32,374 nt of DNA, taken from Patescibacteria group bacterium (GTDB taxonomy: Bacteria; Patescibacteriota; Microgenomatia; Woykebacterales; RBG-16-39-9b). A program made the translations under genes and the position numbers. The notes under the pieces are model-generated. The model was not told the origin of the DNA. It saw only the letters and a list, made by a program, of their open reading frames with translations, and did no database searches. Shown piece by piece: positions 4,166-16,777 of this stretch (within the stretch, counting starts at the first letter, position 1; every line of letters begins with the position of its first letter). The stretch covers positions 1 to 32,374 of the forward strand of contig JACZRW010000006.1 in the NCBI GenBank assembly GCA_022574495.1, in the 5' to 3' direction.

Positions 4166-7100
4166 TTAACTCTGGCGACACCAATCATAAGCGTTCTGGA
4201 ATAACCGCAGCCAAGGACTAGCTAATAGGTCTTTCCATTCTTCCGGTAACCAGGGCCACTGCCAGAGTTGGCTACTCAATCTTTCCGAATGAGGCATCAT
4301 CACCAAGTGCCGTCCGTTAGGGCTACAAAGAGCGGTGATCCCATTTGGACTACCGTTGGGATTGAATGGGTAGGTTTCGGTCGATCTCCCTAACGGATCA
4401 ACGAAGCCGAGTGGAATCAACTTCTGCTCGTGCAGCAGGTGAAGTTGATCTTGCTTAGGCAGGTACAATTGACCTTCTCCATGCGCTACCCAAATACCCA
4501 AGCGACTGCCTTCCATTCCACGAAAGAAAATCGATGGACTCTCTCGTATCTCCACCGTTGCGAAACGGGACTCAAAGCGTTTGGAACGGTTAGCGATGAA
4601 TCGCGGTAGGAACCGATCTTCAAGGCCCTGCCACGGTACCAACCCTAAGACCGTAAAGAGCTGGCAACCGTTACAAACACCGAGTGAGAAGGTGTCTGGT
4701 CGATTGAAGAAGTCTTTGAACTGCTCGGAGATTGAAGGGTTAAAGCGGATTATCGCTCCCCAACCTTTCCCGGCGGTAGGTACATCCTTTCGAGAAAAAC
4801 CGCCAACCGCCACAAGACCAACGAAGTCTCGTAATTGTACCTTTCCTTCGATTAGGTCCCGAGTCGTTACGTCATAGACATCGAAACCGGCCAAGTGAAA
4901 GGAAGCAGCCATCTCCTGATCCCCATTGCTACCTTCGTCACGAAAGACCACCACTTTTGGTTTTGCACTTCCTTGCAAAACTTCCGGCAACGTCACCTGT
5001 GGGGTGTAGGTGAGTGAGAAAGAAGGTGGATCCCATTTCTGGAAGGACGCCGTTTCTTCAGCAACACATTCGGGGTCGGTTTGGAACTCTTCGATCAAGG
5101 TGCTGGTACTTTCCCAGAGAACCCTAAGTTCGGACAACGAATTGTCCAGAACAATCCCGTTTGTGTCGGAGATAACGAAGCGGGAGCCGCGGTCAGCAAC
5201 TTCTCCGATTAGTTGCGCCGGAACTTGGGACTCAGACAACCGAGCGAGAACGATCTGGGGTGAATCAGTCTCAACCACCAATCCCAACTCCTCGTTAAAA
5301 AGGAAACTGATGGGATCGGAAGTTTGGAGTTGAATACCCATACCGTAACCACCGGCGATTGCCATCTCTACTAATGTGGTTATCAACCCGCCGTCACTTC
5401 TATCGTGGACTGCTGATATCAAACCCTGCTCGACAAACTCTTGGATAGTGTCGAAAACTCGAGCGAGCAACGACACGTCCTCGACGTCCGGGCAGTCGGA
5501 ACCGATTTGATCGAACGATTGTGCTAATGCCGACCCACCTAGGCGCATTCTTCCTACGCCGAGGTCTATGAAGATGAGGAAAGACCCTTCTTTCTTCAGA
5601 TCTGGTGTAACCTTTATTCGGACGTCATTCATGTAGGCGTAGGTGGCAATCACCAACTGACCCGGAGCCTTGACTACCTCATCGGTCTGCTCCGGACCTT
5701 GCATCAGAGTCGCCATTGAGAGACTGTCTTTACCACCATCCACAGCGAGACCAAGTTCCACCATAATGTTACTCATGGCGACGGCAGTGTCATACAGCTT
5801 GGCACCCTCACCAGGAAGCTTCGCGGCCCACATCCAGTTGGCTTGGCAGCGAATTTCGTCTCGGTTGCTAACACGCGCACCGCAAAGGTTAAGGAGTGCT
5901 TCTGCAACTGCCAATCTTCCCATCGCAGCTGGGTTTAATAAACCCTTGATGGGTTGTTCACCCAAGCTACGCGCTGTACCCGTATAACCAAAGTGGCTGT
6001 GAGCCTCAATGGAGAAATCGGCAACCGGTAATTGAAACGGCCCAACACATTGTTGCTGGGCAATCAATCCGCCAACAGCACGGTCGACTTTTCTTACCAG
6101 GTAACCCTTGGAACCAACTGATAGTAACCTCAGAATTTTATCTAAGGCGACTTCTACTGTCAGATCCTCAGGCAACTCTAGCGGATCAAGTTCTTGGGGT
6201 AGATGAACTAGGTCGCAGTGCTTCTGAAAACCTTCACCGAGCGCAACTTCCTGAGGAAGCTCAACCGGTCGAGAACCATCGTTGTCTTCAAGAACGAAGT
6301 TCCCATCACCAGTCACCTCGCCCAAAAACGCCACCGGGCAACCCTCACGCCGACAGATTTCTTCTAAGAGTTTTCTGTCAGCTGGTCGGATAAGAAGACA
6401 CGCTCGTTCTTGAGACTCGTTTCCCAAAAGCTCAAGTACAGAGAGGTTCTTGTCCCCAACCGGGATAGACCTTAGGTTTATTCTTGCTCCGAGGGGGTGA
6501 ACCAACTCCGGAAGGGCGTTGCAGTCACCACCGGCACCAAGGTCATGAATAGAAACAATCGGGTTTCCTTCTCCGAGTTCAATACAAGCCCGGATAACTC
6601 TGTATACCCGCTGTTCCATCTCTGGATCCCCACGTTGGACAGAATCAAAGTCGAGTTTTGCTGTATTCTGTCCTTGCATCATGGAGCTGGCCGAACCACC
6701 ACCCAAACCAATACGGTAGGCGGGACCCCCGATTTGCACGACCAACATACCCACTTCAGGGTCACCTTTGTAGACATGAAGGTCATCAACTAGACCAGCA
6801 CTAGCCGCGTAGAGAATCGGTTTGTACCAAGCCCAGTGATTATCTCCCAGTTGGAAATCGAAACTACGAACAAAACCGAGAGTTACCGGCTGTCCGAAGC
6901 AGTTACCGTAGTCAGAAGCACCGTTGCTTGCTTGAATTAGGACATCGATTGGTCGAGCAAACTGCTCTGGTGGTGGCCAGGCTTTCTTTTCACCTGGTAA
7001 ACCCAAACCCAAAGCAGCTACCGCGTAGCCAAAGGCGTAGGCAGTAACCAAGGCACCTTTGCCAACCGAAAACCCATCTCTGGTAACACCCCCACCGCCG

Positions 7101-8050
7101 GTTGCGGCTCCTGGGTAGGGTGAAATACCGGTTGGATGGCTGTGTGTCTCGGCAGTCAGTGTGGGGTGAAGAACACGGTTGGATGAGACAAGAAGACTGG
7201 GTTGTCCTGGAAATTCTGGTACCAGGATTTCCACCAATCCTCCACGAATTACCGAGGAGTCATCACTAAAGGCAGACAGCGAGTTCCCTGGACTCAGTTT
7301 CCAAGGTCTCATGACGATTTCCAGCAAGGTTTGCCCAACTGGCTGACCATCAATTGTTATTTCACCTCTGAAGAAGGGGTGACGTGAGTGTTCGGAAAGA
7401 CTCTGAGCAAGCTGGAAGAGCTCAACATCAGACGGGTTTCTTTCCAATTCCACCTGGAAGATTTGTCTGATGTATTGAACATCCTGTTCGTCCCATCCCA
7501 ACCCCAACTCCTCGTTCAAGCGGAGTAGGACTTCCGATCCTTCTGCCAAAACTGGGACGATTCTAACTGCGGCCGTTTCTACATTAGTTGCAAAACTTGA
7601 CAGAGGAACCGGGTAGATCATCTCCGTCATACGGTCGAACAAACCCTTAATGAGGGCTCCGACTTGGCTCTGTTCAATCTGGGGTTCGAAACCCAGGCGC
7701 AACGATCGCTCGATTCGTATCGCTTTGGATAACCCACAATCCCGAAGCACCGAAATAGCGTTGCTGGACCAAGAAGTCTCAAAACTGAGATGTGGTCCAA
7801 TTTCAACCACTTCTTTGCCTGTCAAGAAAGTAGTTTCCCCAAAATTATCCGGTTCGAACATTTCGGCTAACAACCAGCGGATCAACTCATAGTCCGCTTC
7901 GGTCAAACTCTCTTCTAGTTCGAGGTAGTAACACCACTCACTAGAAATCGAAAGCCCGTCGATACCTAAGCTACGAGCCTTTTCCTCAAGTTGTCCTTCT
8001 CGCCAACGATTAAGAGCGGGTTGTTGATAGAAGCGTACTAGTTGGGTCAT
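4166..8050 (-). CDS. purL: Phosphoribosylformylglycinamidine synthase, large single-chain form (synthetase plus C-terminal glutaminase)
   Basis: 1294 aa; AETHSHPTGISPYPGAATGGGGVTRD, SIHDLGAGGDCNALPELVHP, VDGGKDSLSM, SAVHDRSDGGL; glutaminase GVCNGCQ and AHGEGQ. Confidence 0.97.
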   Translation of the reverse strand: MTQLVRFYQQPALNRWREGQLEEKARSLGIDGLSISSEWCYYLELEESLTEADYELIRWLLAEMFEPDNFGETTFLTGKEVVEIGPHLSFETSWSSNAISVLRDCGLSKAIRIERSLRLGFEPQIEQSQVGALIKGLFDRMTEMIYPVPLSSFATNVETAAVRIVPVLAEGSEVLLRLNEELGLGWDEQDVQYIRQIFQVELERNPSDVELFQLAQSLSEHSRHPFFRGEITIDGQPVGQTLLEIVMRPWKLSPGNSLSAFSDDSSVIRGGLVEILVPEFPGQPSLLVSSNRVLHPTLTAETHSHPTGISPYPGAATGGGGVTRDGFSVGKGALVTAYAFGYAVAALGLGLPGEKKAWPPPEQFARPIDVLIQASNGASDYGNCFGQPVTLGFVRSFDFQLGDNHWAWYKPILYAASAGLVDDLHVYKGDPEVGMLVVQIGGPAYRIGLGGGSASSMMQGQNTAKLDFDSVQRGDPEMEQRVYRVIRACIELGEGNPIVSIHDLGAGGDCNALPELVHPLGARINLRSIPVGDKNLSVLELLGNESQERACLLIRPADRKLLEEICRREGCPVAFLGEVTGDGNFVLEDNDGSRPVELPQEVALGEGFQKHCDLVHLPQELDPLELPEDLTVEVALDKILRLLSVGSKGYLVRKVDRAVGGLIAQQQCVGPFQLPVADFSIEAHSHFGYTGTARSLGEQPIKGLLNPAAMGRLAVAEALLNLCGARVSNRDEIRCQANWMWAAKLPGEGAKLYDTAVAMSNIMVELGLAVDGGKDSLSMATLMQGPEQTDEVVKAPGQLVIATYAYMNDVRIKVTPDLKKEGSFLIFIDLGVGRMRLGGSALAQSFDQIGSDCPDVEDVSLLARVFDTIQEFVEQGLISAVHDRSDGGLITTLVEMAIAGGYGMGIQLQTSDPISFLFNEELGLVVETDSPQIVLARLSESQVPAQLIGEVADRGSRFVISDTNGIVLDNSLSELRVLWESTSTLIEEFQTDPECVAEETASFQKWDPPSFSLTYTPQVTLPEVLQGSAKPKVVVFRDEGSNGDQEMAASFHLAGFDVYDVTTRDLIEGKVQLRDFVGLVAVGGFSRKDVPTAGKGWGAIIRFNPSISEQFKDFFNRPDTFSLGVCNGCQLFTVLGLVPWQGLEDRFLPRFIANRSKRFESRFATVEIRESPSIFFRGMEGSRLGIWVAHGEGQLYLPKQDQLHLLHEQKLIPLGFVDPLGRSTETYPFNPNGSPNGITALCSPNGRHLVMMPHSERLSSQLWQWPWLPEEWKDLLASPWLRLFQNAYDWCRQS

Positions 8051-8416: not shown

Positions 8417-8779
8417 ATGCGGACTGGGGTTCCTGCAACATCATATATTTCTACACTTCCGGTAACTTTTTTCACCTGGTGGTTTCTGGAAAGCCCAAAA
8501 ATAATCTATAAAGTATTGTACTTTACATTTGTATCCGTGGTTCATCAATTGGGCTATAAATCTCTTTTTAAAACTTTTTTCAAACCCTGGAAAAATGAAT
8601 ACCGAGAGGGTTTAGTTGGTTTTTCTGTTGTTATGGGTATCACCATAAAAACCTTGTTAATATTTGTAGAGAGCTTCGTCATACTATTTTTATTAGTAAC
8701 AATCATTCCAATTTTTATTGCTTGGGTCCTATTACCATTTTTAGTTTTGTGGGGAGTATATGTCGGCCTTTTCGCCTGA
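8417..8779 (+). CDS. Small multi-pass membrane protein
   Basis: 120 aa, several hydrophobic segments; 3' end overlaps the ATG of the downstream Clp-like gene by 20 nt. Confidence 0.55.
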   Translation: MRTGVPATSYISTLPVTFFTWWFLESPKIIYKVLYFTFVSVVHQLGYKSLFKTFFKPWKNEYREGLVGFSVVMGITIKTLLIFVESFVILFLLVTIIPIFIAWVLLPFLVLWGVYVGLFA

Positions 8780-11207
8780 ATTTTCAAAGGTTTTTAAAGC
8801 AGCAGCGTTTTCTAATCTTATATCTACTCTTCCATTCTTACTTATACGAATCGGAGTGCTAAGTCTATTTGGTGTACTATCCATCTCTTCAATAAACTCT
8901 ACAGTATTATATTTCTGGGTTTCTTTGTTTTCCCTAGATTTGATGCTTGAGGTTTTCTACCACTTCAATGTCTCAGAATACAAAACAAAGAAAATGATAA
9001 ACGAAGAAATTGATAATATTTCCCAATCTTTCAATATCCAAGCTGCTAAAATTATTTTAAAAGCTCCTGATTGGAGTCATGTCTCGTCATTATTAAAATC
9101 CTTGCTAGGGGATAAAAAAATAAAATCTTTCTTCGCGAAAGCAGGTTTCAATAAAGAAGAGGTGGAGGCCTTGGCAAAAGCTAGCGCAAATGATCCATTA
9201 GATATACAAAAACTAGTGTTAACTTCTTATGAATTTGCCAAAAAAGAGAAAAATAAATCTATAGATCAGATAGATTTGCTTCTGGCCCTATTTTCTGAAT
9301 CTAATGCTCTTAGGCAAGCGGTATTTTCGAAACAACTTAACGATACGGATCTGGGAAATATTGCTTATTGGACTAGACACTTATTTACAAAATCTGAGAT
9401 TCATTTTTGGGATAAATCTCCATATGCTTTAGGTCTTGGACTAGCCTCACTTTGGGAAGGAGGCTGGACTCTTGAGACAGAGAGATTTTCTAAAAATATA
9501 AATAATGAAATACTCGGAGGCAAAATTAAAAACCACCTAGTAGGTCGAGGAGACGTGATCAATCAAGTTGAAAAAGTATTATCGAGGTCTTCAAAAAGAA
9601 ATGTAATCCTTATAGGCGAGCCGGGGGTTGGTAAAACTACGGTGGTTTATGGCCTGGCCCAAAGATCAGCACATGGAAATCTTCAGGAATCCCTAAAATA
9701 TAAAAGATTCCTAGAGCTAGATCTGAGTGCTCTTCTAGCATCTGCCGGTGGGGGAGAGCTACAGGAAAGATTAAATAATTTACTTACTGAAATCTCTCAT
9801 GCCTCAGACGTTGTACTCTTTATACCTCAGATTGAATTCTTAACCACAAGTGAAGGAGGAGGGGCCGATATTACCGGCCTTTTGATAAACACCTTGAAAG
9901 GAAGTGGTCTACAGGTTATCGGAACCACAACTCTAGAAGAGTACAAAAAAAATATTGAGCCAAAAGTAACCTTTGCCGAAGCCTTTGAAAGTGTCGAAAT
10001 ATCCCCACCTTCTAGAGACATGAGTATAAGAATCCTAGAAGAAGCGGCCACTAATATAGAATTGAAAAATAAAATTACCGTAAGTTACAAGGCAATAGAA
10101 AAAGCAGTGGATTTATCCCTTAAATTTATGCCTGATAGAACATTGCCTGGAGTGGCAATCAACCTTCTTGACGAAGCAGCCACCGCTACTTCCTTAGAAA
10201 GGAAAAGGATATTGATTCCAGAATTAATCGAACAAATTGTTTCTCAAAAAACTAAAGCTCCCGTTACCTTCGCTAAGGGAGAGGAGTCTAAGAAACTTTT
10301 AAATCTCGAAAAAGAACTACACAAAAGAATTATCGATCAAGAGGAGGCTATAAAATCAGTATCAGAAGCAATAAGAAGAGCGAGAACTTTACACCGAGAC
10401 AGTAGTCATCCCATCGGAGTATTTTTATTTCTTGGTCCAACTGGAGTTGGAAAGACTGAAACTGCAAAAGCCCTAGCGAGTATTTATTTTGGATCTGAAG
10501 AAAGAATTATTAGAGAGGATATGAGTGAGTATCAAGAAGAACAATCTATAAATAGACTAATCGGAGCTCCGCAAGGAACAGGCGGAAATCAAAGAGGTCA
10601 ATTCACGGAAAAAATTAGAGAAAATCCTTTTACGGTGGTCCTCTTGGACGAGATGGAAAAGGCAAATCCAAAAATACAACAAGCGTTTCTTCCAATTTTT
10701 GATGAAGGAAAAATCGAGGATTCGTCCGGTAAACAAATAATTTTTACAAATTCCATCATTATTGCAACATCCAACGCTGGGGCAGAATTTATTAGAGAAT
10801 CGATCCAGTCCGGTAAAAGTGCAATTGATATAAAAAAACCACTACTAGAGAAACTTCAAAGGGAGAATATTTTTCGTCCTGAATTTCTAAATAGATTCGA
10901 TGATATCGTTGTATTCAAACCTCTATCACCAGATGAAGTAAAGCAAATTGTTGGTTTATTATCTTCTCAATTGGCCCACAGACTAAAGAAACAGGATATA
11001 GACATTAAATTTGATGACGCATCGCTAGATTTAATTTCTAAAAAAGGTTTTGATCCAACTTATGGTGCAAGGCCCTTGAGAAGAGTTCTGCAAAACGAAG
11101 TAGAGTCTACTCTCTCCAAAAAAATTCTTTCTGGAGAAATAGCTCGCGGAAGCAAAGTACTAGTAAGTACTTATGGCGATAAGCTAACACTCAAACCGTT
11201 ACCTTAA
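8760..11207 (+). CDS. Membrane-anchored Hsp100/Clp-family AAA+ ATPase (two AAA modules)
   Basis: N-terminal hydrophobic segments; D1 Walker A GEPGVGKTT; D2 GPTGVGKTE, VVLLDEMEKA, RPEFLNRFDDIVVF, GARPLRRVLQNEVE. Confidence 0.9.
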   Translation: MSAFSPEFSKVFKAAAFSNLISTLPFLLIRIGVLSLFGVLSISSINSTVLYFWVSLFSLDLMLEVFYHFNVSEYKTKKMINEEIDNISQSFNIQAAKIILKAPDWSHVSSLLKSLLGDKKIKSFFAKAGFNKEEVEALAKASANDPLDIQKLVLTSYEFAKKEKNKSIDQIDLLLALFSESNALRQAVFSKQLNDTDLGNIAYWTRHLFTKSEIHFWDKSPYALGLGLASLWEGGWTLETERFSKNINNEILGGKIKNHLVGRGDVINQVEKVLSRSSKRNVILIGEPGVGKTTVVYGLAQRSAHGNLQESLKYKRFLELDLSALLASAGGGELQERLNNLLTEISHASDVVLFIPQIEFLTTSEGGGADITGLLINTLKGSGLQVIGTTTLEEYKKNIEPKVTFAEAFESVEISPPSRDMSIRILEEAATNIELKNKITVSYKAIEKAVDLSLKFMPDRTLPGVAINLLDEAATATSLERKRILIPELIEQIVSQKTKAPVTFAKGEESKKLLNLEKELHKRIIDQEEAIKSVSEAIRRARTLHRDSSHPIGVFLFLGPTGVGKTETAKALASIYFGSEERIIREDMSEYQEEQSINRLIGAPQGTGGNQRGQFTEKIRENPFTVVLLDEMEKANPKIQQAFLPIFDEGKIEDSSGKQIIFTNSIIIATSNAGAEFIRESIQSGKSAIDIKKPLLEKLQRENIFRPEFLNRFDDIVVFKPLSPDEVKQIVGLLSSQLAHRLKKQDIDIKFDDASLDLISKKGFDPTYGARPLRRVLQNEVESTLSKKILSGEIARGSKVLVSTYGDKLTLKPLP

Positions 11208-11332
11208 TACTGTAATAATTTCTATCCACACAACGTTACTAAATTGATAGGTAAAGATCCGGACTTGACACCACTACGTCCTTGAAGTGTGGACTTCGAG
11301 GTGTCAAAACCCCGTAGCTTTAGCAATGGGGG

Positions 11333-11361
11333 TTGACAAATTGGGTTTTCTTTCGGATAAT
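11333..11361 (+). promoter_or_regulatory. Sigma70-type promoter
   Basis: TTGACA (11333-11338), 17 bp spacer, GATAAT (11356-11361). Confidence 0.65.
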
Positions 11362-11418
11362 ATGGCCTGTCATTATTACTGCCTGCTGTTTCATACCAGC
11401 AGGTATTTTATTAATAAA

Positions 11419-12003
11419 ATGGTTGAATATCTTACTACTATCGGAGATAAAACCTTAAACATTAGCCGAAAGTCACTAGGATTTTCAGCTTTTATGAAGA
11501 GATTCAGGCTTCCAATTCTTATTATCCTCACTATTACAATCCTTGTTTTCCTGGCAGTGTGGGCCCAATCTGGCATTAGCCAAAAACCCACTGCAAAAAT
11601 AAATCAATCCTTTTCCACTCAAGCTAGAACAGAAGATAAAATAAGAGTAAGAGATGCGGATCTTTTGGTAACAATAAATGGTGCTGATATAGATAACTCA
11701 CTCTTAATTCAAGGAAAGAGAGCCAGAACCAGAGAGGGTAAAACTTTCCTTATTATAAATATGGAGGTCGAAAATGAATTCCAAGTACCGCTTTATATTT
11801 TCCCGGTGGATCTGCTGCGTCTAGTAAGAGAGGACGGCAAAAAAATAGCACCTAGTGTTCACCAGGGAACAGTAGAAATAAGACCAATTTCAACGAAAAA
11901 AAGCAATGTTGGTTTTGTAATAGACCCAGATGAAAAAAATTTCAAGTTAGAAATCGGAGAGCTCTCTGGAGAAAAACAACTATTAGAGATATCATTTAAA
12001 TAG
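11419..12003 (+). CDS. Membrane-anchored extracytoplasmic protein, DUF4352-like beta domain
   Basis: ORF opens at 11287 but the promoter lies inside that extension, so ATG 11419 is preferred; single N-terminal TM, then GKTFLIINMEVEN...PLYIF...VGFVIDPDEKNFKLEI. Confidence 0.55.
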   Translation: MVEYLTTIGDKTLNISRKSLGFSAFMKRFRLPILIILTITILVFLAVWAQSGISQKPTAKINQSFSTQARTEDKIRVRDADLLVTINGADIDNSLLIQGKRARTREGKTFLIINMEVENEFQVPLYIFPVDLLRLVREDGKKIAPSVHQGTVEIRPISTKKSNVGFVIDPDEKNFKLEIGELSGEKQLLEISFK

Positions 12004-12006
12004 ATT

Positions 12007-12228
12007 ATGGTGGACGAATATTCGACCAGTGAAATAAGTGAAAAATTAATTTCCGAAATAAAGGAGGCTATCGGTAGTAAAGAGTATGGTTCGGTAGAAA
12101 TCTATATAGAATCCGGCCGTGTGGTTCAGATCACAGAAAGAGTGATTCGAAAAAAGATAAGATCAAATGGTAATGAGACTAAAAAAGGGGAAATGGTTTA
12201 CTGGAGACCGATAAAAAATCGTAAGTGA
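12007..12228 (+). CDS. Small YezD-like (DUF2292) protein
   Basis: 73 aa; EAIGSKEYGSVEIYIESGRVVQITERVIRKKIR resembles the YezD/DUF2292 pattern. Confidence 0.65.
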   Translation: MVDEYSTSEISEKLISEIKEAIGSKEYGSVEIYIESGRVVQITERVIRKKIRSNGNETKKGEMVYWRPIKNRK

Positions 12229-12252: not shown

Positions 12253-12282
12253 TTGACAATGGAATTTGCAGCGACTTATAAT
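12253..12282 (+). promoter_or_regulatory. Strong sigma70-type promoter upstream of the repeat-protein operon
   Basis: TTGACA (12253-12258), 18 bp spacer, TATAAT (12277-12282). Confidence 0.7.
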
Positions 12283-12288
12283 TGTAAC

Positions 12289-12452
12289 TAGAGTAATATA
12301 CTCTTCAGAGACATTGCTTTAAACAAATTAGTAACTTGCCCAAATACTGTTCCTAAATAGACACGACAAAGAGCCTACCTCCTGCCAAATGGGCTCTCAG
12401 CCGACCGCAAACGGAGGCAGCTCTTCAAAATTTTGAAGCGCTGCCTTTTTTT
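12289..12452 (+). ncRNA. Candidate structured leader / attenuator or independent small RNA
   Basis: Starts at the expected TSS with hairpin AGAGTA-ATA-TACTCT; then AGAGCC...GGCTCT, CCG-CAAA-CGG, and a terminal terminator. Confidence 0.45.
12415..12452 (+). terminator. Intrinsic terminator inside the leader of the repeat-protein operon
   Basis: AGGCAGCtcTTCAAAATTTTGAAgcGCTGCCT near-perfect palindrome plus TTTTTTT. Confidence 0.85.
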
Positions 12453-12513: not shown

Positions 12514-13614
12514 ATGAACAAACAAAAATTACTTTATGGTGCAGCTAGCGGTTTTGCCGCTTTGGCATTTTCGCTAACTCCTGTACTAGCTGCAGAAGCT
12601 ACCAATTCTAACACCGGTGCAAACTCTGACAACGACGCTAAGATAGATATCGATAATGACGTTACAATATCACAGGAAAATTTTCTCGATGTTAACAACG
12701 ATATTAGTGTAAACATTAACACTGGGGGTAACACCGCTGATAAAAACACTGGTGATGGTAGTGTCAGTACTGGTGATGGTGACGCAACAGTTAGCATTTC
12801 CAACCTAGGAAATAGTAACTCTGCTTCTATCAACATGTCCGGAAGCGTTGATGCTTCCGCAAGCAATGACACCACTGGTTTCAAATCTGACAACGATGCT
12901 ACGGTAAAAGTCGAAAATGACTTTGACCTAACCCAGAAAAACATAGCTAAGGTCAATAACTACGTGGACATTGATGTTGACACTGGTGATAACAGTGCAG
13001 ACAAGAACACAGGTGACGGAAGCGTAAAAACTGGAGATGGAGACGTAGAAGTCTCTATCGAAAACATGCTTAACGAAAACGACGCTGAAGTAGATCTAGG
13101 CAGTATTGGTGAGGCTTCGGCTTCTAATGATAATACTGGTGCTAAGTCTGACAACGACGCTATAGTAAAGATCAATAATGATGTTGATATTTTACAAGGA
13201 AACAATCTCTCCGTGAAAAATCACGTAGATGTTGACGTTGACACTGGTAATAACAGTGCCGACAAGAACACCGGTGATGGTGATGTCGATACTGGTGACA
13301 GTGACGTAGACGTTGAAATCTCCAACAAAGGCAACAGCAATGACGTTGATGTTGAAGGTGGAGACGATATAGACGCTGACGTGTCAAATGACACCACTGG
13401 TTTCAAGTCTGACAACAACGCTAAGGTAGAAGTCGATAATGACTTGGATGTAACTCAAAAGAATAAGACTCACATCCATAACGATGGCGACATTGACGTT
13501 GACACAGGTGATAACAGTGCCGACAAGAACACCGGTGATGGTGATGTCGATACAGGTGATGGTGATGTTGATATTGACGTAGAAACAGATGTCAATTCTA
13601 ACAACCTCGACTAA
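12514..13614 (+). CDS. Exported repeat protein, four 87-aa units; no C-terminal anchor seen
   Basis: ATG 12514 behind AGGGGGTGA; signal peptide MNKQKLLYGAASGFAALAFSLTPVLAAEA; unit starts at 12610, 12871, 13132, 13393 (exact 261 bp spacing). Confidence 0.85.
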   Translation: MNKQKLLYGAASGFAALAFSLTPVLAAEATNSNTGANSDNDAKIDIDNDVTISQENFLDVNNDISVNINTGGNTADKNTGDGSVSTGDGDATVSISNLGNSNSASINMSGSVDASASNDTTGFKSDNDATVKVENDFDLTQKNIAKVNNYVDIDVDTGDNSADKNTGDGSVKTGDGDVEVSIENMLNENDAEVDLGSIGEASASNDNTGAKSDNDAIVKINNDVDILQGNNLSVKNHVDVDVDTGNNSADKNTGDGDVDTGDSDVDVEISNKGNSNDVDVEGGDDIDADVSNDTTGFKSDNNAKVEVDNDLDVTQKNKTHIHNDGDIDVDTGDNSADKNTGDGDVDTGDGDVDIDVETDVNSNNLD

Positions 13615-13627
13615 CATCAGATCTTAT

Positions 13628-13711
13628 CTCGGGATCTCGTTTCGCTAGAATGGCGGGACGAGCCCGAGTAAGGTTGGGGGCAGACAAAATTAATCTAAAT
13701 AATTTTGCCTG
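13628..13711 (+). repeat. Two consecutive hairpins between repeat genes 1 and 2
   Basis: CTCGGG...CTCGT...ACGAG.CCCGAG (13628-13668) and CAGaCAAAATTA-atctaaa-TAATTTTGcCTG (13681-13711). Confidence 0.55.
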
Positions 13712-13773
13712 ACCACAACAAAAGATTAGTGAAAAATAAAAATAGAAGGGTAAGAAAAAATAAAATAGGGATA

Positions 13774-15903
13774 ATGAATAGCCTTATAATTGTAATGACA
13801 GCAGTGGTAATTGCTTTTTCACCGGTAATTGCCCTATCTTCCCCGGCTCACGCAGTACCAGATTTACCAAGTACTCCGGATTCTCCAGACTCACTAGATT
13901 CTCCAGATGAACCGGAAAGCCCAAAGACTCCAAAGTTACCAGGGGAAGACGAACCAGTCATTCAAAATGATCAGACTAGCACTGAAACTGATACTAATGA
14001 AGGCCAGGTAGAGGAGGAGAATAATAATGAGTCCCAACCAGATTCAAGCAATAATGATCAGCCCAGCACTGAAACTACTAGCACTGATTCAAACAATGAT
14101 ACAAAAATTCAAGGTAATGTTGGTACCACCACAGAAGATTATACAAAACCTGATACTCAAGAGACTTCTATAGACAACCTAGAATCAGTTGGTGGTTATA
14201 ATAACAATGAGGTGAGTCTTGCCGATTTAGCCGCTGGGAATTCAAACACTGGGGCAGATTCAGATAATAATGCCAGACCAGAAATAAACAACGACTTTGA
14301 CTTAACCGCTACAAATAATCTTAACGCAGATAATACTGCGTATGTAAACGTAGATAGCGGGAAGAATTCGGCTGATAAAAATACCGGAGACGGAGAAGTA
14401 GTTGCCGGCGATGCCGACATTGTACTCACAGCTCTAAATGTCGGTAATAATACTGGCGTCGGCACCCAAGTTTTCAATGTTTATGATGATCAAACCGGTG
14501 ACTTAATTATAGATTTTGATAATGTTTCCTCCCTACCGCTAGGGACTGTATGCGGCGATGGAAGTGCCACAAATACTACCACCGGTTCAGACTCAAATAA
14601 TGATGCCACTACTGTATGTACTACCCAAAATACAATACTAATAGATAATAATGGAAATATAATAAATGACTACTATTTAAGTGCTGACACCGGTAATAAT
14701 AGTGCGGATAAAAATACCGGGGACGGATCGGTAACCACTGGAGATGTCAATATTGTCTTGAACGTAATAAACTTTATTAATAATACTTTTCTCGGCGGCG
14801 GTGGGGAATTATTACTTGGCTTGGTAAACATTTTTGGAAACTTTGATGGCAATATTGGCCTGAATATCCCTAACTCAGGAGACGACTACCTTCTAACCTC
14901 TAGTAGTGCCGGAAATTCTAACACTGGAGCAGATTCAGATAATAATGCCAGCACTTCATCAAGTAGTGATACTGACATAGCTATGACAAACACAGCGGAT
15001 ATTTTAAATAATATCATGCTCTTTGGCGATACTGGAAATAACGACGCGTCCAAAAACACCGGGAGTGGGTTGGTAACTACTGGAGATATTAATTCAAACC
15101 TAAACGTAACTAACATCAGTAACACGAATGGGATTGGTGATGGTGGGACCATTTGGATGGTATTGGTTAACAACTTAGGTAATTGGACCGGACAGATTTG
15201 GGGATTTGATAGTACTGGAGTTGCATCACCATTTTTCGCTTTTGAAATAGGGGAGGACGGTGCGTTTAATGCGATTACCGGCGCTGGTTCTACCAATAAC
15301 GCCACGGTTACAAATAATAACGATACCGATATAACCATGAATAATAATGCCAAGCTAACCAACAATATTTATATAAACGCCAATACTGGAAATAACAGCG
15401 CCACCATGAATACTGGAAATGGAACTATAAGTACCGGGGATGTAAATGTTGCCGCCAATATAGTTAATATATTGAATAATAATTTCCTGGCCAGCAAATT
15501 TGTGCTAACCATTGTAAATGTCTTTGGGAGTTGGACCGGTAACATATTACCTTTCGGCTGGGGAGGATCTGATTCAGATGTTATTGCGGATGAAAGCTCT
15601 TCTATTTCTCTTGAAGCAAATGGTGTTTCGAGTAATCAAGTAGGATATACACCATCTGTAAATGTTCTTGGTGTAACTTCAAGTAATAATTTCAATTCAG
15701 ATAGTAATTCAGACAAAGAGGAGGAGAGGGAGATTGCCACTCTGCTAACAAAATCGGAGGGAGGTGCTAAGATAAATTCTGTCACAAAAGTGATCGGAAA
15801 GGATGCTGGATCTATTTACGATTATTGGTGGGTAATAATACCATTACTAGTTGCCACCACTTCTGCCCTATACAGAAGGAGGTTTTTATGGAAAAAGCAC
15901 TGA
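13774..15903 (+). CDS. Exported repeat protein, four divergent units, C-terminal TM anchor
   Basis: Signal peptide MNSLIIVMTAVVIAFSPVIALSSPAHA (ORF extends to TTG 13705); Pro/Ser/Asp/Glu-rich linker; four units with the 56-aa core; C-term WWVIIPLLVATTSALYRRRFLWKKH. Confidence 0.85.
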   Translation: MNSLIIVMTAVVIAFSPVIALSSPAHAVPDLPSTPDSPDSLDSPDEPESPKTPKLPGEDEPVIQNDQTSTETDTNEGQVEEENNNESQPDSSNNDQPSTETTSTDSNNDTKIQGNVGTTTEDYTKPDTQETSIDNLESVGGYNNNEVSLADLAAGNSNTGADSDNNARPEINNDFDLTATNNLNADNTAYVNVDSGKNSADKNTGDGEVVAGDADIVLTALNVGNNTGVGTQVFNVYDDQTGDLIIDFDNVSSLPLGTVCGDGSATNTTTGSDSNNDATTVCTTQNTILIDNNGNIINDYYLSADTGNNSADKNTGDGSVTTGDVNIVLNVINFINNTFLGGGGELLLGLVNIFGNFDGNIGLNIPNSGDDYLLTSSSAGNSNTGADSDNNASTSSSSDTDIAMTNTADILNNIMLFGDTGNNDASKNTGSGLVTTGDINSNLNVTNISNTNGIGDGGTIWMVLVNNLGNWTGQIWGFDSTGVASPFFAFEIGEDGAFNAITGAGSTNNATVTNNNDTDITMNNNAKLTNNIYINANTGNNSATMNTGNGTISTGDVNVAANIVNILNNNFLASKFVLTIVNVFGSWTGNILPFGWGGSDSDVIADESSSISLEANGVSSNQVGYTPSVNVLGVTSSNNFNSDSNSDKEEEREIATLLTKSEGGAKINSVTKVIGKDAGSIYDYWWVIIPLLVATTSALYRRRFLWKKH

Positions 15904-16715
15904 AAAATACAACGGTAAAAATTATAACAGCTGTTTTGTTTTTTGGAGTAGCCATGCTACTAGCTTCGTCTACATTTGCTGCTGAAGCGAGTAATTCAAA
16001 CACAGGAGCAGATTCTGACAATGACGCTAGCGTGAACATTGGAAATAATGTCACTATCGAACAAAATAATGATGCCAATATAAACAATATTATTCATGTC
16101 AATGCAAACACTGGCGGAAACTCTGCTAGCAAAAACACTGGGGATGGCTCGGTAAACACCGGAGATATAAACGGAAGCATTAATATCTTCAATAGTGTAA
16201 ATGGAAATGGTCTAAACAGTCTTGGTTTCGATTGTGACGGACTATGTGCAGTCGATTTAGACATCTCTGTATCCAATACTAATACCGGAGCAGATTCTGA
16301 TAACGAAGCCAGTGTCAACGTGGAAAATGACTTTGATATCACTCAAAACAATAACTTGAATATCGATAATAAAGTCAAAGCCAATCTGGATACTGGAAAT
16401 AACGACGCAGATAAGAATACCGGCGATGGTTCGGTAAACACCGGGGATATCAATTTTGATATCAATATAACCAATGAAGGCAATGAAAATAACATTGGAG
16501 GCCCAGTGGATGAAGACGATCCAAGCGAACCAGCTAAGAAAGAGCAGGATGCAATACTTCCAGAAGAAGGAAAAGTACTTGCAGCTGCTGAAGGCCTACC
16601 GGTAACCGGTGGAACTCTACCAATAATGCCAATTATGGCTATTATTCTGGCTGGTTTGGCAATGAGGAAAGTTGAAGAAACGCTTAGATTAAGATTTCTC
16701 CCAGAGAAAAAATAA
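15888..16715 (+). CDS. Exported repeat protein, two units, LPXTG-type C-terminal signal
   Basis: ATG 15888 preceded by AGAAGGAGG; signal peptide ending STFAAEA; two 56-aa cores; C-term LPVTGGTLPIMPIMAIILAGLAMRK...; overlaps the gene 2 stop by 16 nt. Confidence 0.85.
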   Translation: MEKALKNTTVKIITAVLFFGVAMLLASSTFAAEASNSNTGADSDNDASVNIGNNVTIEQNNDANINNIIHVNANTGGNSASKNTGDGSVNTGDINGSINIFNSVNGNGLNSLGFDCDGLCAVDLDISVSNTNTGADSDNEASVNVENDFDITQNNNLNIDNKVKANLDTGNNDADKNTGDGSVNTGDINFDINITNEGNENNIGGPVDEDDPSEPAKKEQDAILPEEGKVLAAAEGLPVTGGTLPIMPIMAIILAGLAMRKVEETLRLRFLPEKK

Positions 16716-16741: not shown

Positions 16742-16777
16742 AGACCCCCGGCATGTCCGGGGGTCTTTGTTTTTTGT
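16742..16777 (+). terminator. Intrinsic terminator of the repeat-protein operon
   Basis: AGACCCCCGG-CATGT-CCGGGGGTCT followed by TTGTTTTTTGTT. Confidence 0.92.

Follow-up and report, generated by a model that had tools for sequence, protein, structure and literature searches.

What might be built from three consecutive exported proteins that share a single, undescribed repeat in a tiny, groundwater-type member of the Patescibacteria? The question is raised by a stretch of 32,374 nucleotides (contig JACZRW010000006.1 of assembly GCA_022574495.1, positions 1 to 32,374; hereafter the window), in which the genes in question, termed g1, g2 and g3, occupy positions 12514-16715. The window belongs to the Microgenomates group of Patescibacteria, and its family includes Candidatus Woykebacteria. 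Here we characterize the three genes, their relatives and an RNA element in front of them, and propose, with a probability of roughly 0.55, that the locus is a patescibacterial surface-structure operon in which g1-g3 make up a regulated fibre or coat. Members of the Patescibacteria spend their lives on other cells, and, type IV pili apart, the means by which they attach are mostly unknown; the operon is a tangible candidate for a part in displaying proteins at the surface or in touching a host.

The features of the locus, in window positions, are as follows.

11287-12003, plus strand: upstream partner, DUF4352 domain protein with an N-terminal transmembrane (TM) segment (PF11611, E 2.6e-6; annotated start possibly too early)
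12007-12228, plus strand: small DUF2292 protein, 73 residues (PF10055, E 1.4e-6, over cut-off)
12253-12282, plus strand: sigma-70 type promoter TTGACA-18-TATAAT, 12/12 (consensus match only)
12398-12452, plus strand: conserved leader RNA element, with RCYGACCGCAAACGGAGGY at 12400-12418 and hairpins at 12398-12420 and 12415-12446, the latter with a T-run
12514-13614, plus strand: g1, four repeat units, unanchored; signal peptide 12514-12591
12610-12777, plus strand: g1 core 1 (regular expression)
12871-13038, plus strand: g1 core 2 (regular expression)
13132-13299, plus strand: g1 core 3 (regular expression)
13393-13560, plus strand: g1 core 4 (regular expression)
13617-13678, plus strand: g1-g2 intercistronic hairpin (z -4.6)
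13705-15903, plus strand: g2, with export signal, Pro/Ser/Thr/Glu-rich stalk (about residues 50-165), four units and C-terminal TM segment
within 13705-15903, plus strand: VN[VI]FG..G[DN][IF]-type motifs alternating with the four repeat units of g2
14245-14412, plus strand: g2 core 1 (regular expression)
14578-14745, plus strand: g2 core 2 (regular expression)
14920-15087, plus strand: g2 core 3 (regular expression)
15274-15441, plus strand: g2 core 4 (regular expression)
15823-15870, plus strand: g2 C-terminal hydrophobic anchor (from sequence; orthologues above the TM threshold)
15888-16715, plus strand: g3, with signal peptide, two repeat units and an LPXTG sorting signal at its C-terminus
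15999-16166, plus strand: g3 core 1 (regular expression)
16281-16448, plus strand: g3 core 2 (regular expression)
16596-16610, plus strand: LPVTG sorting motif, hydrophobic stretch and basic tail behind it
16742-16766, plus strand: intrinsic terminator 3' of g3 (10 pairs, 8 of them G-C, T-run)

Bounded by a promoter-like site (12253-12282) and a terminator (16742-16766), g1-g2-g3 looks like a transcription unit of its own. Its three open reading frames (ORFs) contain exactly four, four and two copies of a 56-residue core, as counted with the regular expression and fixed 26-residue spacer of the initial annotation, while 2000 residue shuffles of each protein yielded none. The ten indel-free cores reported there were thereby reproduced, although a one-residue insertion (GDG to GGDV) in some homologue units limits the term “indel-free” to the window's genome rather than the whole family. 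Pairwise identities among the cores of 44-73% at the protein level and 49-77% at the DNA level mark them as diverged, selected repeats and not as the product of recent DNA duplication. Within the window's genome the repeat is confined to the g1-g2-g3 locus.

The three proteins differ in their predicted fate, in the way the initial annotation had described. The product of g1 (start ATG 12514, preceded by GAGAGGGGGTGA) has a signal peptide, lacks a C-terminal anchor and is strongly acidic (18.6% Asp, net charge -60). That of g2, whose start codon is uncertain (TTG 13705 or ATG 13774), ends in a hydrophobic stretch followed by RRR..KKH; the hydropathy of this segment lies slightly below the 1.6 used as the threshold for calling TM segments, and most orthologues exceed it. 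Accessory motifs such as VVN[VI]FG..G[DN][IF] follow the g2 units and are absent from g1 and g3 of the window. The first 16 bases of g3 (start ATG 15888, preceded by AGAAGGAGG) lie within the end of g2, and its product carries what is expected of an LPXTG sortase substrate, namely a signal peptide and, towards the C-terminus, the LPVTG motif (16596-16610) with a hydrophobic stretch and basic tail behind it, with sortase encoded in the same genome; no match of its C-terminus to the Pfam anchor models was obtained.

Neither single sequences nor a profile of the g1-g3 repeat matched any entry in Pfam, NCBIfam or the PDB, so that a match of the core to a characterized family, named in the initial annotation as grounds for refuting its reading, was not encountered in these searches. 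The nearest matches are contigs of Candidatus Woykebacteria from the window's own family, MHCR01000016.1 (G005 C16) and MHCO01000033.1 (G001 C33). The repeat is present in 17 of 40 relatives of the same class, which also includes a Gottesmanbacteria genome (G016), and in 25 of 192 genomes sampled across the phylum (about 13%). In a scan of 85,462 species genomes all named records with the repeat were Patescibacteria (Woykebacteria, Gottesmanbacteria, Daviesbacteria, Woesebacteria, Roizmanbacteria, Andersenbacteria and Saccharibacteria) and the remainder unnamed bacterial bins, but the short, strict patterns used, drawn from a close four-sequence g1 alignment, have limited reach and do not prove absence outside the phylum. 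Phage, plasmid and viral contig collections yielded no relative. Both the repeat family and the trio of unanchored, TM-anchored and LPXTG-bearing proteins are undescribed in the libraries and open literature searched, and no description of a g1-g2-g3 operon was found in the latter.

Across the class a common order is kept: a small exported protein, DUF4352, DUF2292, the leader, g1, g2, g3 and a sortase. Unit numbers follow the gene, with four to five in g1 (no anchor), four to five in g2 (C-terminal TM segment) and usually one to three in g3 (LPXTG or TM segment). Nearly every cassette of the class has the DUF4352 gene 5' of g1, and a coding region homologous to DUF2292 was found 5' of the leader in L028, L026 and L027 and, by eye, in L029, L034, L052 and L103. 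The order g1-g2-g3 also extends beyond the class to others in the phylum, where a sortase may be present or absent. Of 44 best matches between g1 units, 17 fell at the equal position when the window was the starting point and 26 of 44 when L050 was, which indicates that unit orthology is partly kept and does not amount to a frozen unit order.

This conservation bears on whether the three genes form a system at all, or encode independent surface proteins with a common domain, g1 being released and g2 and g3 acting as separately anchored adhesins with no common polymer. Stand-alone secreted two-unit proteins in related genomes (L039, L040, L041 and L049) speak for such independence, as does the fact that assembly of g1-g3 is our inference. 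Opposed to it are the fixed g1-g2-g3 order over class and phylum, the single RNA leader before g1, the overlapping reading frames, and the unit number and accessory motifs characteristic of each gene; we consider independent proteins rather unlikely, and the claim that the three genes are a real system is supported by their kept order. The stand-alone proteins themselves are unanchored, are encoded away from the operon or convergently to it, and were located on the minus strand of L039 (6842-7426), L040 (7052-7636), L041 (6416-7009), L029 (11205-11804) and L049 (15517-16107).

A sortase gene (PF04203) was detected in 40 of 40 relatives, at 1-5 copies per genome of roughly 1 Mb. With at least one in every relative, mere co-occurrence is uninformative, and it is adjacency that carries information. 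In all 13 class cassettes outside the window's family with a complete g3 (counting the g3 of L030, which has no recognizable core and was included by position), the sortase ORF lies -79 to +54 nucleotides from the end of g3 and usually overlaps it. A phylogeny of 75 sortases places nearly all linked enzymes in two dedicated clades, one with eight of eight members linked (clade A, support 100/98) and a second with five of eight (clade B). All eight clade A cassettes have a g3 ending in LPXTG or LPISG, while in the four distinct clade B cassettes whose g3 was read it carries a TM segment and no LPXTG; enzyme and signal thus co-vary. LPXTG or LPISG is found at the equivalent place in most class-level g3 orthologues, including those of the window's family, where a shared, unlinked sortase (contig C57 in the window's genome, G000) is accompanied by a second on contig C19 in an unrelated context. 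These data support sortase-linked surface display of the system. The initial annotation's idea of a sortase-linked component therefore gains from the relatives, in most of which a sortase gene is attached to the conserved trio, and not from the window alone, where the sortase is unlinked.

Sortase-linked surface loci as such are of a known kind. The present locus resembles those of monoderm bacteria in its Sec signals, the LPXTG-TM-basic tail of g3, the adjoining sortase in relatives and the matching of sortase clade to signal, and differs from them in a repeat that has no relation to the pilin, Cna-B or MSCRAMM domains known so far, in a g1 with neither anchor nor sorting signal, and in the unlinked sortase of the window's family. 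A classical sortase-polymerized pilus, with g1, g2 and g3 as shaft, base and tip, would account for the three-protein layout, the dedicated sortase next to g3 in relatives and the LPXTG of g3. In one genome, L029 (Gottesmanbacteria), the operon is immediately preceded by genes for an LPXTG protein of the SpaA/Cna-B kind and for a sortase (L029 2-3238 and 4135-4746). Covalent pilin polymerization, however, requires a sorting signal on the shaft, and here only g3 has one while the expected shaft, g1, has none; nor did Pfam or NCBIfam reveal pilin or Cna-B domains in g1-g3. We regard such a pilus as highly unlikely. TasA/camelysin fibres (PF12389) offer another comparison as secreted fibre-type operons of monoderm cells, and a sub-threshold PF12389-like neighbour lies 3' of the sortase in L030, but g1-g3 have no similarity to PF12389.

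Alignment of the regions upstream of g1 revealed a nearly invariant GCYGACCGCAAACGGAGGC located 110-220 nucleotides 5' of g1 in most class cassettes and followed by a hairpin ending in GCCTCCGTTTTTT. The conserved stretch can fold as NNRCY-GA-CCG-CAAA-CGG-A-GGYNN; alternatively, its CGGAGGYNN strand pairs with a downstream NNRCCTCCG to form a terminator. In the window, RCYGACCGCAAACGGAGGY (12400-12418) lies in an antiterminator-like hairpin (12398-12420) that overlaps an intrinsic terminator hairpin (12415-12446). Both helices covary, with 35 and 47 alignment cells changed on both sides as counted on the same sequences from which the structures were read; none of 500 shuffles scored as high, and slid controls were all lower. 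The R-Y pair of columns 3 and 21, for instance, is GC in 18 cases, AU in 13 and GU in two. Since the two structures are mutually exclusive, the element has the anatomy of an attenuator: a covarying antiterminator and terminator in a 5' leader, for which two-state switching is predicted. Like attenuators of the pyr and bgl/lic type and riboswitches, it sits between promoter and first gene and has two covarying hairpins sharing one strand and a T-run terminator; unlike them, GCYGACCGCAAACGGAGGC and its gene association match no family in Rfam 15.

A pattern-only search of 192 class genomes, allowing up to two mismatches, matched 59 genomes, with few matches in the reversed control. Of 30 loci fetched, 26 had a repeat-protein ORF just 3' of the element, two ran into the end of their contig and two seem to be fortuitous matches; at 26 of 28 usable loci, the association of the leader RNA with repeat-protein genes is near-exclusive. 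The element is found, too, before the genes of stand-alone secreted proteins with two units (L039; L029, minus strand), and thus marks a regulon of repeat proteins. A promoter-like site was found 5' of it in 25 of 45 cases, against a background of 18% for stretches picked at random from these loci, which is supportive and not decisive. No Rfam 15 family matched the leader in the window or in seven loci; mir-290 and similar E-value matches were dismissed, as they fall far below gathering scores and reflect the hairpin only. The element is likewise undescribed in the open literature searched. As a cis-regulatory RNA devoted to a surface structure it would be new, and it makes regulation of the operon testable in vitro in a group with nearly no genetics.

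A possible second copy was seen in the window's genome (G000 C63:8325-8343, minus strand; L174), with two mismatches and its own terminator-like hairpin, in front of a sugar-nucleotide dehydrogenase-like ORF; if true, it would place surface polysaccharide in the same regulon.

The gap between g1 and g2 holds a strong hairpin in seven of seven genomes tested, that is, the window and six of six orthologous gaps (z -3.9 to -7.9), with hairpin sequences that are unrelated between genomes. Intercistronic hairpins commonly protect the upstream message, and such a role would point to g1 as the subunit made in the largest amount.

As for the fold, an alignment of 224 distinct units shows strict alternation, with conserved even columns from 10 to 42 (S, N, hydrophobic, hydrophobic, N/T, V, Q, N, A, I/V, N, V, hydrophobic, A, T) and variable odd columns occupied by D, N, S or T; after TG the register shifts, and alternation resumes at odd columns 61-71. 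Such alternation characterizes amphipathic beta strands whose Asn and Gln face inward, and by sequence the repeat unit is beta-rich. AlphaFold models of g1 and of a two-unit block have the same strand pattern, a strand of about 31 residues, a short hairpin region and a strand of about 17-19. Structure prediction thus agrees on beta strands in both jobs, at low confidence (pLDDT 72 and 59).

The initial annotation had pictured a beta-solenoid or curli-like fibre. A functional amyloid of the curli or Fap type, with subunits nucleated on a surface base and growing by beta-solenoid stacking, would fit the run of about 33 residues in which every second one is an inward-facing Asn, Gln, Val or Ala, and the CsgA and FapC entries among the weak Foldseek matches. 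Those matches are insignificant, however (best E 0.2, TM-scores at most about 0.13), AlphaFold gives long strands and no short rungs, the Curlin_rpt repeat (PF07012) was found neither in g1-g3 nor in the genome, and no CsgG was found; membership of the curli family itself was rejected on these grounds. With curli (CsgA/CsgB and CsgG) the locus shares secreted repeat subunits, inward Asn/Gln and an anchored partner, a likeness in manner of working only, and it differs in the unmatched Curlin_rpt and CsgG, a repeat of about 56-90 residues and the lack of an outer membrane route. An amyloid of this kind seems unlikely; the strong amphipathic alternation speaks for the earlier picture.

The calcium binding suggested in the initial annotation from Asp/Asn/Gly density fared worse. 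A Ca2+-binding coat resembling an S-layer or RTX proteins would agree with the very acidic g1, but the invariant positions of the repeat are Asn, Gly, Thr, Gln and Ala, whereas Asp falls mostly on variable exposed positions occupied by Asn, Ser or Thr in relatives. As acidic ligands are not conserved over the 224 units, a Ca2+ site as a conserved feature of the repeat was rejected. With no match of g1-g3 to RTX or S-layer families in Pfam or NCBIfam, we hold such a coat to be the least probable of the alternatives.

Several observations weigh against a regulated, sortase-linked fibre or coat. No sortase is linked to the operon in the window's own family. The class cassettes of L031, L033 and L054 lack both g3 and a linked sortase, so that sorting is not indispensable, and in other classes no sortase was detected close to most of the cassettes. 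The AlphaFold models are weak, with one tolerable model of five per job (pLDDT 72 with pTM 0.59, and 59 with 0.37), and Foldseek searches of solved and viral structures (PDB and BFVD) gave no significant match. Experimental data on any member of the family were not found in the open literature.

If the locus is nevertheless a surface-structure operon, as we favour, it may work as follows. Transcription would start 5' of the leader RNA, where the choice between terminator and competing hairpin could attenuate surface-protein synthesis. The three products, built on one common beta-rich repeat unit, would be exported by Sec. The C-terminal TM segment of g2, behind a long Pro/Ser/Thr-rich stalk, would fix that protein in the cytoplasmic membrane, and g3 would be cleaved at LPXTG by a sortase (the dedicated neighbouring enzyme in relatives, a shared one in the window's family) and joined to the wall or to another subunit. 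Lacking an anchor, g1 would be retained at the surface through like-to-like contacts between its units and those of g2 and g3, and could form the major subunit and bulk of the fibre or coat; the intercistronic hairpin would raise g1 over g2 and g3. Host attachment or a protective coat are its conceivable roles. More tentative, and on balance somewhat unlikely, is the broader proposal of a new class of surface fibre confined to Patescibacteria, a three-protein heteropolymer of one undescribed beta repeat in which one protein serves as membrane base and another is sortase-linked. A cis-regulatory RNA of a new class would switch its synthesis in response to a signal that perhaps comes from the host or the wall.

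Two further ORFs lie upstream of the operon. A ClpB/ClpA-type AAA protein with N-terminal hydrophobic segments is encoded at 8760-11207, and a similar one lies upstream of the cassette in L025, L026 and L028. On the minus strand, 4166-8050 holds an ORF of 1294 residues, which we take to be PurL-like, whose GC content of about 0.50, against about 0.37 for the contig, suggests that it was possibly acquired.

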